Origin: a virus
DNA: 31,367 nucleotides
Reading direction: 5' to 3' (one strand)
IMG/VR virus record: IMGVR_UViG_3300028571_002508
Location: 1 to 31,367 of that record
Below the pieces are notes generated by a model. It saw only the letters and a list, made by a program, of their open reading frames with translations, did no database searches and had not been told where the DNA came from. The position numbers and the translations under genes are program-made. Below, piece by piece: positions 4,268-30,484 of the stretch (position 1 is its first letter; every line of letters begins with the position of its first letter).

Positions 4268-4692
4268 AAAAGACCTATAAAGTGTTTTCCTCTAAATACG
4301 ATTGCTATTTGAGTTTCACTTACCTAAACGGTTTGCTGTGCGGTTTTCAGTTTGAAAACGAAAGCGAAATCCGTTTGGATGTAGATAGCCTCGTTGGAAT
4401 TTTGGAAGCATCACTGACCTTTGAAAACTTGACTCACTTTGCCAAGTCCCGCAAGATGGCCGTGGTGGAAGTGCAGGCAGATTTGAGTTTTGAGGCGTTT
4501 TGGAATGCCTACAACTACAAGGACGGAGGCAGTAAAAAGAAAGCACAGGCCATTTGGGGCCGTTTGAGCGAAACAAACAAGGCCGCTGCAATGGCCAGCC
4601 TACCGAAATACGAACAGTTTTTGAAACGAAGCCAAACGGCAAAGGCATTTGCGACAACATATCTAAACCAGGAACGATGGAACAACCAGTGA
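4264..4692 (+). CDS. phage protein with replication-associated C-terminal domain
   Basis: In this 142-residue protein, residues 1-75 are a beta-rich unknown domain. Residues 79-142 follow a pattern common at the C-termini of phage replication or regulatory proteins: FWNAY, a Lys-rich stretch, AxxIW, a helix, a Leu-Pro-x-Tyr segment, and a final tyrosine-leucine-x-x-x-x-tryptophan. The function of that module is uncertain; it often follows a winged helix, which is absent here. The gene is coupled upstream by a 4-base overlap and overlaps the next gene by 16 bases. Confidence 0.5.
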   Translation: MKKTYKVFSSKYDCYLSFTYLNGLLCGFQFENESEIRLDVDSLVGILEASLTFENLTHFAKSRKMAVVEVQADLSFEAFWNAYNYKDGGSKKKAQAIWGRLSETNKAAAMASLPKYEQFLKRSQTAKAFATTYLNQERWNNQ

Positions 4693-5273: not shown

Positions 5274-5471
5274 ATGAAAATCGAGACTCAACTTGAAGAC
5301 CAAATTGCGCACTTAAAAGCAGTATCGAGGCGGTTTATGTATTTGCTGCTTGCCACCAACTTGATTTGGGCTACAGCCAACCTGGCGCACTGCCAACGTA
5401 ACAAAAAAGAGTGCAGCCTTTCAGCACTTGAACTGAATGTTGTACCAAAGGGCCAAGGCGTTAAGCAGTAA
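5274..5471 (+). CDS. small membrane protein at end of early operon
   Basis: This 65-residue protein has a charged N-terminus and one hydrophobic helix (about residues 20-39), and starts 1 base after the preceding stop. Its last 50 bases overlap the 3' end of the convergent minus-strand gene, so the C-terminal tail after residue 48 may be poorly conserved. No terminator is visible between the two convergent genes. Function unknown. Confidence 0.42.
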   Translation: MKIETQLEDQIAHLKAVSRRFMYLLLATNLIWATANLAHCQRNKKECSLSALELNVVPKGQGVKQ

Positions 5472-5822
5472 GGCAATGGCGTTGAATATAAAGCCCCAGT
5501 GTTGGTACCAGTTTTCGAATCGCTCTTTTCGGGCAAGTGGCACAAAGCCGCCCGAAACCATAATTTGCTCTGCTTTGGAGCCCAAACAAAACACATCGGG
5601 GTGCTTGCCACCAAAAAAGTCCATTTCGTCAAGGTATTGGTATGCCAGCAATAGCCTGATTAAAATAGATATCTCTGCTTCGGGTATGCTGTGCTGTAAG
5701 AAAAGCGATGTGAGCTGCATACGGTCAATGGCCGATTGCGGGCCAAACTTATGCGCCTGCAATGCTTTGGTGCAGCGGCTCAGCAGCTTGGCGTATTTGC
5801 CAGATAGTGGAGTAAGATTCAT
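5421..5822 (-). CDS. putative winged-helix-like protein with C-terminal membrane anchor
   Basis: This 133-residue minus-strand protein is helical at its N-terminus. Its middle reads like a wing, with a hydrophobic helix, a loop, then CLGSKAEQIMVSGGF, a form seen at the end of winged-helix domains in many small Bacteroidota proteins. One hydrophobic segment closes the C-terminus (about residues 108-128). An in-frame ATG at 5846 would add 8 residues, but they would lie inside a perfect inverted repeat, so I prefer 5822. It faces the antirepressor gene and converges on the early operon, a plausible position for a regulatory or exclusion factor. The family and function are inference. Confidence 0.55.
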   Translation of the reverse strand: MNLTPLSGKYAKLLSRCTKALQAHKFGPQSAIDRMQLTSLFLQHSIPEAEISILIRLLLAYQYLDEMDFFGGKHPDVFCLGSKAEQIMVSGGFVPLARKERFENWYQHWGFIFNAIALLLNALALWYNIQFKC

Positions 5823-5905
5823 TGTGCAAATGTATGATTTGCACATTTCAAAAATTTAAGTTGATATTTGCCGCACACTGTTATTCAAAGTCCCATGTGG
5901 CAAAT
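5823..5905. promoter_or_regulatory. operator-like cluster of TGTG(G)CAAAT half-sites
   Basis: A perfect 9-bp inverted repeat, TGTGCAAAT (5823-5831) and ATTTGCACA (5837-5845) with a 5-base spacer, directly abuts the preferred start of the minus-strand gene. About 20 bases further on, ATTTGCCGCACA (5866-5877) and TGTGGCAAAT (5896-5905) form a second, looser inverted pair using nearly the same half-site. Four related half-sites in 83 bases between divergent genes suggest binding by one dimeric regulator, probably phage-encoded. Its identity is not known. Confidence 0.55.
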
Positions 5906-5926: not shown

Positions 5927-5998
5927 ACCTGGAGGGTGCAGAGCGGTAACGCCTGCCGGTTCAATTGCCTCGGCTTTGAATGACAGTGTCCTCCAGGT
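5927..5998 (+). ncRNA. structured leader or small RNA upstream of antirepressor
   Basis: A perfect 9-bp stem (ACCTGGAGG at 5927-5935 with CCTCCAGGT at 5990-5998) encloses two further hairpins. The first pairs GCAG and GCG (5938-5945, one bulged A) with CGC and CTGC (5950-5956) around a GTAA tetraloop. The second pairs about 5959-5964 with 5976-5981. The closing stem runs into seven T residues, so the element terminates transcription by itself. The antirepressor ATG is 14 bases further on. It could be a trans-acting small RNA, or an attenuator or riboswitch-like leader for the antirepressor. I know no Rfam family it matches. Confidence 0.5.
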
Positions 5999-6004
5999 TT
6001 TTTT
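5990..6004 (+). terminator. intrinsic terminator formed by closing stem of the leader RNA
   Basis: The 3' arm of the 9-bp closing stem (5990-5998) continues into a run of seven T residues (5998-6004), followed by an A and four more T. The 5' arm is at 5927-5935. Its placement directly before the antirepressor start means that expression from an upstream promoter needs read-through or refolding. Confidence 0.6.
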
Positions 6005-6018
6005 ATTTTCCACACTTT

Positions 6019-6708
6019 ATGGGTCACACTGTCCCCCAAAGTTCCGCCAAGGCTGGTAGCCAAGGCCTGAACAGGAGTAATTCACCTAACGAATTGCCAA
6101 TAGTTTTTAGTGGTGAACATCAACTTGTTGATGCTCGACTACTTTTTGTTCGGTTGAATAATGGATACAAGTTCACAACTTGGATTCAAGCACGAATTCA
6201 AGAGTTTGGATTTGAAGAAGGTAAAGACTTTTTCCAAATTTTTGGAAAAAGTCAATTTGGTAGACCAGGCACCAACTACCACCTCACCCTAGACATGGCC
6301 AAAGAGCTGGCCATGCTTGAGCGCAGCGAAGCAGGCCGATACTTTCGCAGGTATTTTATAGAAAAGGAAAAGGAGCTGGTGGCCATGAAGCGGCAAACGC
6401 TGATCAGCAGCCCAACCGAGCTGTTTAAAGGCCTGAAACCAGAGAAAATCAACAACCGCAAACTGTGGCCATATAGCGAGGTACTGGACCGGCTGGGCTA
6501 CAACAAAAAAAGCGGCAGCCGCAGCAACCGGGTGAAGAAAAACCCAAACCACTTTGTGAAGCTGGGCGAGCGGCAGTACATCACTGAAGAGTTTGCCCGC
6601 CACCTGGCAGCGCAAAAGGCGGTGCTGGACAACCGCAAAACCATAAAGGCTATGCCAGCCGTGCTGATGTTGGACTTTAACCCGGGCGGCGACCATGGTA
6701 ACATTTGA
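6019..6708 (+). CDS. phage antirepressor, AntA/AntB domain
   Basis: This 229-residue protein carries an AntA/AntB (ANT) domain at about residues 27-115. Its landmarks are VDARLLFVRL, FTTWIQARI, GFEEGKDF, the GRPGTNYHLTLDMAKELAMLE block (81-101) and a Tyr-Phe-Arg-Arg helix. Such proteins inactivate phage repressors and promote induction. The unrelated C-terminal half (about 130-229) is basic and helical and may bind DNA or the target repressor. I chose the ATG at 6019; an earlier in-frame ATG at 5980 lies inside the terminator-like RNA. The 3' end overlaps the next gene by 14 bases. Confidence 0.82.
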   Translation: MGHTVPQSSAKAGSQGLNRSNSPNELPIVFSGEHQLVDARLLFVRLNNGYKFTTWIQARIQEFGFEEGKDFFQIFGKSQFGRPGTNYHLTLDMAKELAMLERSEAGRYFRRYFIEKEKELVAMKRQTLISSPTELFKGLKPEKINNRKLWPYSEVLDRLGYNKKSGSRSNRVKKNPNHFVKLGERQYITEEFARHLAAQKAVLDNRKTIKAMPAVLMLDFNPGGDHGNI

Positions 6709-6901: not shown

Positions 6902-6906
6902 GAAAA

Positions 6907-6935
6907 AAGCCCCTCGAATTGAGGGGCTTTTTTTA
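6907..6935. terminator. bidirectional intrinsic terminator
   Basis: A perfect 8-bp GC-rich stem (AGCCCCTC 6908-6915, GAGGGGCT 6921-6928) with a GAATT loop is flanked by A residues on the left and seven T residues on the right. It would terminate transcription from both sides: the plus-strand antirepressor unit and the minus-strand HEPN-like cassette, whose stop codon is at 6936. Confidence 0.88.
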
Positions 6936-7415
6936 TCATTTAAAGTGCTGAAGCGTGCTTTTGTTCAAACCTATGCAATTGATGGTGGGAGAATTGCAAT
7001 CAATATTAAGTTTGGATTTGAAATAAATTATTAGGTTGTCGAGGTGTTTGATGGCCTTTGCAAAGTGCTTGTCGTAGGTAAAAAAGGTTTCACTGGTTGC
7101 AGGCGGGTTATCGCCATCTTTCACTAGGTATCTTGAGCGACGAGAAAGGTGTTGAAGTTTGACAAAACTAATATAAGCTTCTTCTTCAATTTTTGTTGCA
7201 GATAGCTGTGTTTCGGGATTAAGCGCATTTTTTACCTGTTCATGACTACGGTATTGAAGTCCATAATTTGCTAAATGAGCATTGACTAAATGTACAGCAG
7301 TGTAAAAGCAGATTGTAACTTGCCAATCGTGGCAAGAGGCAATTTTTTGGTTTACGTTTTCTAGAAAAACTAAATTGCTATTTGCCTGGGCAATATGGTC
7401 TTTAAAAAGGGGCAC
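6936..7415 (-). CDS. HEPN-like domain protein, accessory cassette gene 2
   Basis: This 159-residue helical protein starts at a GTG 5 bases after the stop of its partner gene. The segment DWQVTICFYTAVHLVNAHLA (30-49), followed by a Tyr-Arg-Ser-His-x-x-Val stretch and then YISFVKLQHLSRRSRYLV (80-97), resembles HEPN-fold proteins of the small stand-alone type (aromatic first helix, SRRARYL-like third helix). Many HEPN proteins are RNases or RNA-binding parts of toxin-antitoxin and anti-phage systems. The classical R-x(4-6)-H catalytic motif is not evident after the SRRSRY helix, so it may be a non-catalytic member. The minus orientation, own promoter region and own terminator mark it as an independent cassette. 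Confidence 0.6.
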   Translation of the reverse strand: MPLFKDHIAQANSNLVFLENVNQKIASCHDWQVTICFYTAVHLVNAHLANYGLQYRSHEQVKNALNPETQLSATKIEEEAYISFVKLQHLSRRSRYLVKDGDNPPATSETFFTYDKHFAKAIKHLDNLIIYFKSKLNIDCNSPTINCIGLNKSTLQHFK

Positions 7416-29014: not shown

Positions 29015-30484
29015 ATGGCAATCGTTTCAATCTCTCAGCTCAAATCTTGGTTTTTGGCACTTAAAAAGCCCACCGAAGATCAGTTTTCAGATGTCTTTGA
29101 CTCCCTGGTGCACAAGCAAAGGGACTTCGATCAAATGGGTGGAGGGCTAAAGCCCCACAACCCGGCCAGGCCATACACGGCGGGCGAAGCGGCCATTTGC
29201 CTTGGCAAAATAAGGCTGGCCAAAACCAACCTACAGCCAGGAGCATACAACCCTGCCCAGTGGGAAGATTATGAGAACAACCCTGTGAGCTTGGGCATTC
29301 CCCGATGGCTGCCTGACACCGAATATGAGTTCGACACCGAAAATCCGGAAGCAGCACCACAGGTCATTTACCAGCTCTCGGTACTTCAGGCCACTGCTAA
29401 CAGTGTTGGCATCGAGCCTTTTGTTGACCCTGATTGGAATGATTACTGGGAAGTACTTGTTACCACCCGAGGTGGTGTGTTGCCGATTTACATCCCTGGG
29501 CCCGTTGAAAACAGACTGGTTTACGAATACACAGAGTCGGCAGCTCCAAAGGGTATCTACCGGGCAAACCACACCGAAGAGCCCTATCAAAACGGGTTTA
29601 AGAGCACCGATTTTGCAACTGAACTTGCTGATGATAAATGGTTGTTAGTGGCACCAAGATCTGGCGGAATTGGTGGAGGTGGAATTGAAGCCGTTGTTGA
29701 AGACGAAACCCCTCAATTGGGAGGCGATCTTGATACAAATTCTCATGACATCTTAATGGCGGAAGGCTCAATGCTAAAATTCCCTACAGTAGAGTTATCG
29801 GACGTCGGTGATGGCTTGAAAATTAACAAAAGCACTATAATAGGACCCAACAACGAGTTGATAGTAAGTCCAGATTATTTGCATTATACCAGTGAAAACA
29901 CTGAATTTCAGATCAACACATTAGCTGGAGTTTCCGAGAATAAGGGGTTTCGATTTACTGTAACTGATGAATCAGGATCATTCAGCTTAACTATTTCAGC
30001 GAATGGAATTCAAACTCCCATGAAGTATTTGCCTGGACAAGAATTCAATATCCCTGAGCAAATCGTTAATAAAGAGTATGTAGATTCTCTAATTTCTACG
30101 ACAGTATTCAGCTCCAATGTAACTTTACCAGCTACTTTTTTTGAAACCGACGAATTAGTTATCCTTCCTTCCTCCACAGTAGCATTCACTTCAAATGGAT
30201 TGCATACAATTCAGATGCAGCTCTGTGGCGTTTTTTCAACATCAGCCATTACAAGTGGAAGAACGATATTTAGATTTAAACTTAATGGAGCTACAACCGT
30301 GGAATGGGTAGCATACACAAATCAATCAATCAACATTCAAATGACCACAATACCACTTGAATTTGCCATCAGCGACTTTGAATCCGACACAATTGAGGTA
30401 ACAATGGCTCTTGTAGGTAGTGATTCCAATAGTCAATTTAATGTTGACGACTCCTCTTTTAGGGTCTTGGTATTGAAACAATAG
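29015..30484 (+). CDS. tail fibre, putative receptor-binding protein
   Basis: This 489-residue protein has an N-terminal baseplate-attachment region (1-130), a Gly-rich hinge (SGGIGGGGIEAVVED) with the fibre-type TPQLGGDLDTNSHDI motif (about 233-247), and a beta-rich C-terminal part (about 360-489) containing many Ser, Thr and Asn. The C-terminal portion is visibly more AT-rich than the N-terminal part, which suggests exchange of the receptor-binding end. It closes the tail operon. Confidence 0.72.
   Translation: MAIVSISQLKSWFLALKKPTEDQFSDVFDSLVHKQRDFDQMGGGLKPHNPARPYTAGEAAICLGKIRLAKTNLQPGAYNPAQWEDYENNPVSLGIPRWLPDTEYEFDTENPEAAPQVIYQLSVLQATANSVGIEPFVDPDWNDYWEVLVTTRGGVLPIYIPGPVENRLVYEYTESAAPKGIYRANHTEEPYQNGFKSTDFATELADDKWLLVAPRSGGIGGGGIEAVVEDETPQLGGDLDTNSHDILMAEGSMLKFPTVELSDVGDGLKINKSTIIGPNNELIVSPDYLHYTSENTEFQINTLAGVSENKGFRFTVTDESGSFSLTISANGIQTPMKYLPGQEFNIPEQIVNKEYVDSLISTTVFSSNVTLPATFFETDELVILPSSTVAFTSNGLHTIQMQLCGVFSTSAITSGRTIFRFKLNGATTVEWVAYTNQSINIQMTTIPLEFAISDFESDTIEVTMALVGSDSNSQFNVDDSSFRVLVLKQ

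Follow-up and report, generated by a model that had tools for sequence, protein, structure and literature searches.

The RNA encoded immediately upstream of the antirepressor gene antA in this Mu-like phage is probably a c4-like antisense module that represses antA translation in trans, doubles as a terminator and keeps the prophage quiet. On this account the RNA would be made, act in trans and lower AntA, thereby favoring lysogeny. Transcription would start at an upstream promoter and place a first target copy, a1, at the 5' end of the transcript. The RNA would then fold into a closed three-way form, and its closing stem and T-run would end most transcripts. The terminated product would be a small RNA in which an antisense segment, a', lies exposed, and some transcripts would read through into antA. 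In trans, the a' segment of the small RNA would pair with a second target copy, a2, in the first codons of the gene and block translation of the antirepressor. The block on antA would keep the prophage quiet, and if a phage of the same immunity type superinfected, its antA would be silenced by this RNA as well.

Genomic setting

The window, the whole stretch of DNA analyzed, comprises the 31,367 nt of IMGVR_UViG_3300028571_002508, a Mu-like phage by gene content. Positions 1-966 encode a MuB-like ATPase/DNA transposition protein, followed by early genes on the + strand and later by portal and terminase genes. The promoter pattern, together with the closest AntA relatives (one of them, L086, in a Chitinophagaceae genome), makes Bacteroidota the probable host phylum.

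Several neighboring features accompany antA. A 140-aa orphan gene on the minus strand (5421-5846), divergent from the RNA, encodes a hydrophobic C-terminal stretch and has no family match; its start overlaps a perfect palindrome (5823-5845), and relatives sought via this gene were not found. A palindromic terminator, AAAAAAGCCCCTCGAATTGAGGGGCTTTTTTT, lies 3' of the antA operon at 6902-6940 and could serve both strands. Beyond it, a 159-aa protein encoded on the minus strand (6936-7415) has a weak PAZ-domain match (E = 0.0024, 18.3 bits; Pfam cut-off 28.8).

Structure of the RNA before antA

The first-pass annotation described a three-way-type RNA with a perfect 9-bp stem, a GTAA hairpin, a second hairpin and seven T, and both the sequence and the predicted fold bear out this description. 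The closing stem pairs ACCTGGAGG (5927-5935) with CCTCCAGGT (5990-5998) and encloses the two hairpins. The fold of 5927-6021 reaches -32.9 kcal/mol (z = -3.1) and is equalled by 1 of 200 dinucleotide shuffles. An alternative form of P3, as in c4, pairs GCCG with CGGC (5955-5958/5971-5974) around a 12-nt loop. The suggestion that the closing stem is also the terminator stem is supported by the T-run that follows it in the window and in most members of the set described below. The ATG of antA at 6019 lies 14 nt downstream of the T-run, as annotated, and the gene that it opens belongs to the AntA/AntB family (PF08346, E = 3e-21). The functional unit is probably wider than 5927-6021, with a promoter near 5838-5870, a1 from 5875 and an extension into the gene up to 6041 (Table 1).

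An Rfam search of the window at the gathering cut-off and up to E = 10 returned no relevant match, riboswitch models included. A tRNA/tmRNA search found none, and a nucleotide search among phage records gave no match. A weak second match of the RNA region at 30357-30383 falls inside coding sequence and was dropped.

Table 1. Features of the antA leader region, in window coordinates
Feature	Position	Strand	Basis or remarks
Perfect 9-bp palindrome TGTGCAAAT-N5-ATTTGCACA	5823..5845	.	Over predicted -33 box and divergent gene start
Bacteroidota-type promoter (predicted)	5838..5870	+	TTTG 5838-5841, 21-nt spacer, GATATTTG 5863-5870
a1, first target copy	5875..5892	+	Predicted transcript 5' end; 18 bp with a'
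b, 5' strand of closing stem P1	5927..5935	+	Sequence and predicted fold
P2 hairpin GCAG-A-GCG-GTAA-CGC-CTGC	5938..5956	+	Predicted fold; GCG-GTAA-CGC core 5943-5952
P3 region	5957..5981	+	GTTCAA/TTGAAT hairpin in predicted fold; overlaps 5' part of a'
a', antisense segment	5972..5989	+	Complementarity to a1 and a2
b', 3' strand of closing stem = terminator stem	5990..5998	+	Sequence and predicted fold
Seven T, intrinsic terminator tail (predicted)	5998..6004	+	Sequence
antA, AntA/AntB-family antirepressor	6019..6708	+	229 aa from ATG 6019; PF08346, E = 3e-21
a2, second target copy, codons 3-8 of antA	6026..6041	+	Pairs with a'

Promoter and candidate operator

The element GATATTTG is a TAnnTTTG box with one mismatch, and TTTG-N21-GATATTTG matches the Bacteroidota promoter pattern, which places a1 at the predicted transcript start. 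All 14 Bacteroidota-type members have a TAnnTTTG box, with no more than one mismatch, whose end lies 2-5 nt upstream of a1, compared with 5.2% of random positions; a1 in this count was picked by complementarity, independently of the box. The first-pass annotation had regarded an antirepressor promoter downstream of the RNA as contrary to its proposal; the predicted box lies upstream instead (5838-5870). The palindrome that overlaps the promoter is the sole copy in the window; with up to three mismatches allowed, one match turns up in 4 of 100 shuffles. Its position recalls that of the C1 operator Oc4 at the c4 promoter of P1, and on this analogy it is a candidate repressor operator.

Antisense segment and its two targets

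Within a', CTTTGAATGACAGTGT lies immediately 5' of the closing stem's 3' strand. It is complementary to 5875-5890, with one G-U pair, and to 6026-6041, with three mismatches. The 16-nt motif occurs three times within 170 bp (a1, a' and a2), in the orientation +,-,+, and is not palindromic. Pairing between a1 and a' extends over 18 bp, including two G-U pairs, and none of 2000 shuffles contains a pairing as good. Pairing between a' and a2 covers 16 nt, is interrupted by a 3-nt internal loop (-14.9 kcal/mol) and is equalled by 25/5000 and 40/2000 shuffles (p about 0.005-0.02). The predicted fold leaves the 3' end of a' (5982-5989, GACAGTGT) unpaired; this octamer is the exact complement of ACACTGTC at 6026-6033. 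The a2 pairing in the window is the weakest link: it is imperfect, of moderate significance and placed in the first codons, not over the AUG. The best pairings for a target of a c4-style b' loop do not stand out from shuffles, being equalled in 173/500 upstream and in 85/500 downstream.

Recurrence before antirepressor genes

AntA relatives were gathered from viral contigs and genomes. Of 48 records searched, 10 (P1 among them) exceed the cut-off of the C4 model RF01695, and the same layout was seen by eye at other AntA loci without an Rfam match. An architecture score was assembled from the closing stem, a1:a' and a':a2 in fixed order, and each gene start was compared with its own 100 shuffles. 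Of 165 unique AntA starts, 27 score higher than every one of their shuffles, and of 180 other gene starts on the same contigs none does; the 27 include classical C4 RNAs and unmatched ones, and a few may be chance. The window is among the 27, with a closing stem chosen by the automatic score that differs from 5927-5935/5990-5998, so this result backs the a1/a'/a2 triple and not that stem. Two loci accepted by eye, L008 and L086, fail the automatic test.

The target a2 overlaps the AUG in most members, and in L044 it overlaps a Shine-Dalgarno-like AAAGGAGG. Loop and junction sequences show no conservation across members. MAFFT/RNAalifold applied to 12 diverse members returned no common structure because the member sequences do not align. 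In RAP44, a cultured Riemerella phage, AntA is encoded directly behind another gene with no space for such an RNA, indicating that the RNA is no constant companion of AntA.

Another phage group carries a different structured RNA immediately upstream of antA (L003 5855-5945, L004 5862-5945). Its closing stem is perfect and varies in sequence, and a conserved CCCGTTAAGAG strand is complementary to an upstream copy. An abiF RNA (RF03085) is also found in L003 at 4453-4489 (42.4 bits, cut-off 37).

Covariation in an alignable subfamily

Six members form an alignable subfamily (trimmed alignment): L028, L176, L177 and L254, recovered via AntA, and L258 and L266, recovered via the RNA sequence pattern alone. 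Two-sided changes occur in 6 of 15 stem pairs, and the covariation score reaches 0.302, compared with 0.105 for shuffles (0/500 as high), with slid registers nowhere near. The a1, a' and a2 segments vary between the six phages, yet they are complementary within each; a2 in this subfamily begins one base into the AUG. Compensatory changes in relatives, which the first-pass annotation had proposed as a check, are therefore found in the subfamily, but model R1, built on these six members, does not find the window. The link between subfamily and window is accordingly one of anatomy, not of sequence homology.

The search by RNA motif alone led to antirepressors, and that of L258 belongs to a different family, Bro-N by sequence alone. 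The motif near 6565-6633 (minus strand) of L258 has the same RNA architecture with a Bro-N-like antirepressor in place of AntA, and the module has apparently been exchanged between antirepressor types. The remaining RNA-pattern matches lack the stem and were attributed to chance.

A broader generalization can be offered tentatively, as a possibility that falls short of even odds. A widespread and fast-evolving RNA immunity module of Bacteroidota phages might combine a terminator, an antisense repressor and its own antiterminator (a1:a' in cis). The cis/trans balance might count existing prophage RNA and decide if an incoming phage can make antirepressor, the module might be attached to antirepressors as unrelated as AntA and Bro-N, and immunity type might be specified by a'/a2 alone. 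The occurrence of c4 anatomy, invisible to the Rfam model, before Bacteroidota phage antirepressors points to RNA as a general solution for controlling such genes. Reading a' against a2 would supply a simple sequence rule to predict which prophages silence which.

Alternative explanations

A cis-acting attenuator or antiterminator is an unlikely explanation of the locus. Nascent a1 would take a' before b' is made, hindering the closing stem and allowing read-through into antA; factors or RNA freeing a' would restore termination, and a trans RNA would be unnecessary. The closing stem is also the terminator, and a1:a' forms in the predicted leader fold (-42.3 kcal/mol). Pseudoknot-free prediction gives a1:a' a probability near 1 in the window, L177, L254, L042 and L006; in the window's non-pseudoknotted fold the pairing outcompetes the closing stem, a modeled dominance that could hinder small-RNA formation in cis. 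However, the same type of prediction favors the closing stem over a1:a' in L028, L176 and L007. Because a1:a' is stronger than the closing stem in some members and not in others, cis antitermination is possible but not general. The a and b strands are also separate, so a1:a' and the closing stem could coexist as a pseudoknot. Moreover, a cis scheme leaves unexplained why one member after another has a third copy, a2, at the gene start. Under the preferred reading of trans repression, a1 may serve as a decoy, as a timer or, in cis, as a partner whose pairing opens the terminator.

Control of the kind exerted by the CI RNA of satellite phage P4 has a slimmer chance. A small RNA would pair with the upstream and downstream copies and cause premature transcription termination with no translation block. 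The P4 CI RNA has two pairing partners, seqA on its upstream side and seqC on its downstream side (PMC4825925), an anatomy equal to that of a1 and a2, and the RNA here has a terminator built in. Yet a2 is found beyond the terminator, in the start-codon region, and the AUG or Shine-Dalgarno sequence is covered in relatives, which points to translation.

A ligand-sensing riboswitch in the antA leader is very improbable: a compact three-way structure and a terminator ahead of a gene would suit one, but loop and junction sequences vary across members, unlike those expected for a binding pocket, no Rfam match was found and the conserved features are complementarities. The first-pass annotation had left a choice between a trans-acting regulator and an attenuator or ligand switch. 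The trans regulator has since gained the support of an antisense a', a recurring triple and covariation, and metabolite sensing is unsupported; the evident ligand of the RNA is RNA, not a metabolite. Equally improbable is a reading of a1, a' and a2 as DNA operators of a repressor, with the hairpin merely a terminator, which would accommodate a 16-nt motif repeated three times in 170 bp and copies that vary in concert within one genome, but not the +,-,+ orientation, the placement of a' between P3 and b', a1/a2 sites that are constant across unrelated sequences or a non-palindromic motif next to a better operator candidate at 5823-5845.

Comparison with known phage RNAs

The c4 RNA of phage P1 is the textbook antisense immunity system. 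By annotated features, the P1 order is C1 operator, promoters, a1/b1, c4 RNA, a2/b2, icd and ant, and the predicted fold of the window RNA has the same topology as the P1 c4 fold. The window RNA shares with C4 of P1/P7 (RF01695; c4-a1b1 RF03163) the closing stem P1, a tetraloop hairpin P2, a hairpin P3, a single-stranded a' adjoining that closing stem's 3' strand, and target copies on either side, with a1 before the RNA and a2 after it. An antirepressor is encoded downstream in both (here AntA on the same strand, co-transcription being presumed), and P1 also has an operator at its promoter. In contrast to C4, in which a' has 7 nt, a' spans 16-19 nt in most members, the closing stem leads into a T-run, icd is lacking and the target is on the antirepressor itself; the window also has no detectable b' target and a Bacteroidota-type promoter.

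The RF01695 model recovers P1 c4 at 68.8 bits. It finds no match in the window at the gathering cut-off or up to E = 10, nor in L006, L007, L008, L010, L024, L028, L042, L044 or L086. It also finds no match in 375 Bacteroidota genomes, in which the controls gave no match either. The statement in the first-pass annotation that no RNA family matches thus holds for Rfam but not for anatomy, which agrees with the c4 RNA of P1/P7. The window RNA is termed c4-like and placed outside RF01695 because membership in the set is by anatomy, its a2 is weak and its host is inferred. For P1/P7 c4, formation of the 5' end by RNase P and repression in trans are known (cited in PMC5320573), and a 2010 survey lists C4 RNA for Proteobacteria and phages only (PMC2864571). 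An open-library literature search, weak evidence of absence, found no such RNAs described in Bacteroidota phages.

The P4 CI RNA is likewise a small RNA flanked by two complementary copies, but it works by ending transcription of replication genes prematurely, with no antirepressor gene and no start-codon target described. IsrK of Gifsy-1 (RF01394) offers a second parallel, in which one promoter yields a short terminated RNA and a read-through mRNA with the antirepressor anrP downstream (PMC4825925). IsrK activates translation, whereas the target here covers the gene start and repression is therefore expected. By resemblance, isrK corresponds to the a1b1 leader part of P1, not to the c4 core. 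The sar RNA of phage P22 comes from the ant-arc region, where it is transcribed on the opposite strand. Unlike sar, the RNA described here lies upstream of antA and on its own strand. The P22 RNA is an antisense RNA that blocks antirepressor translation (PMC12197685).
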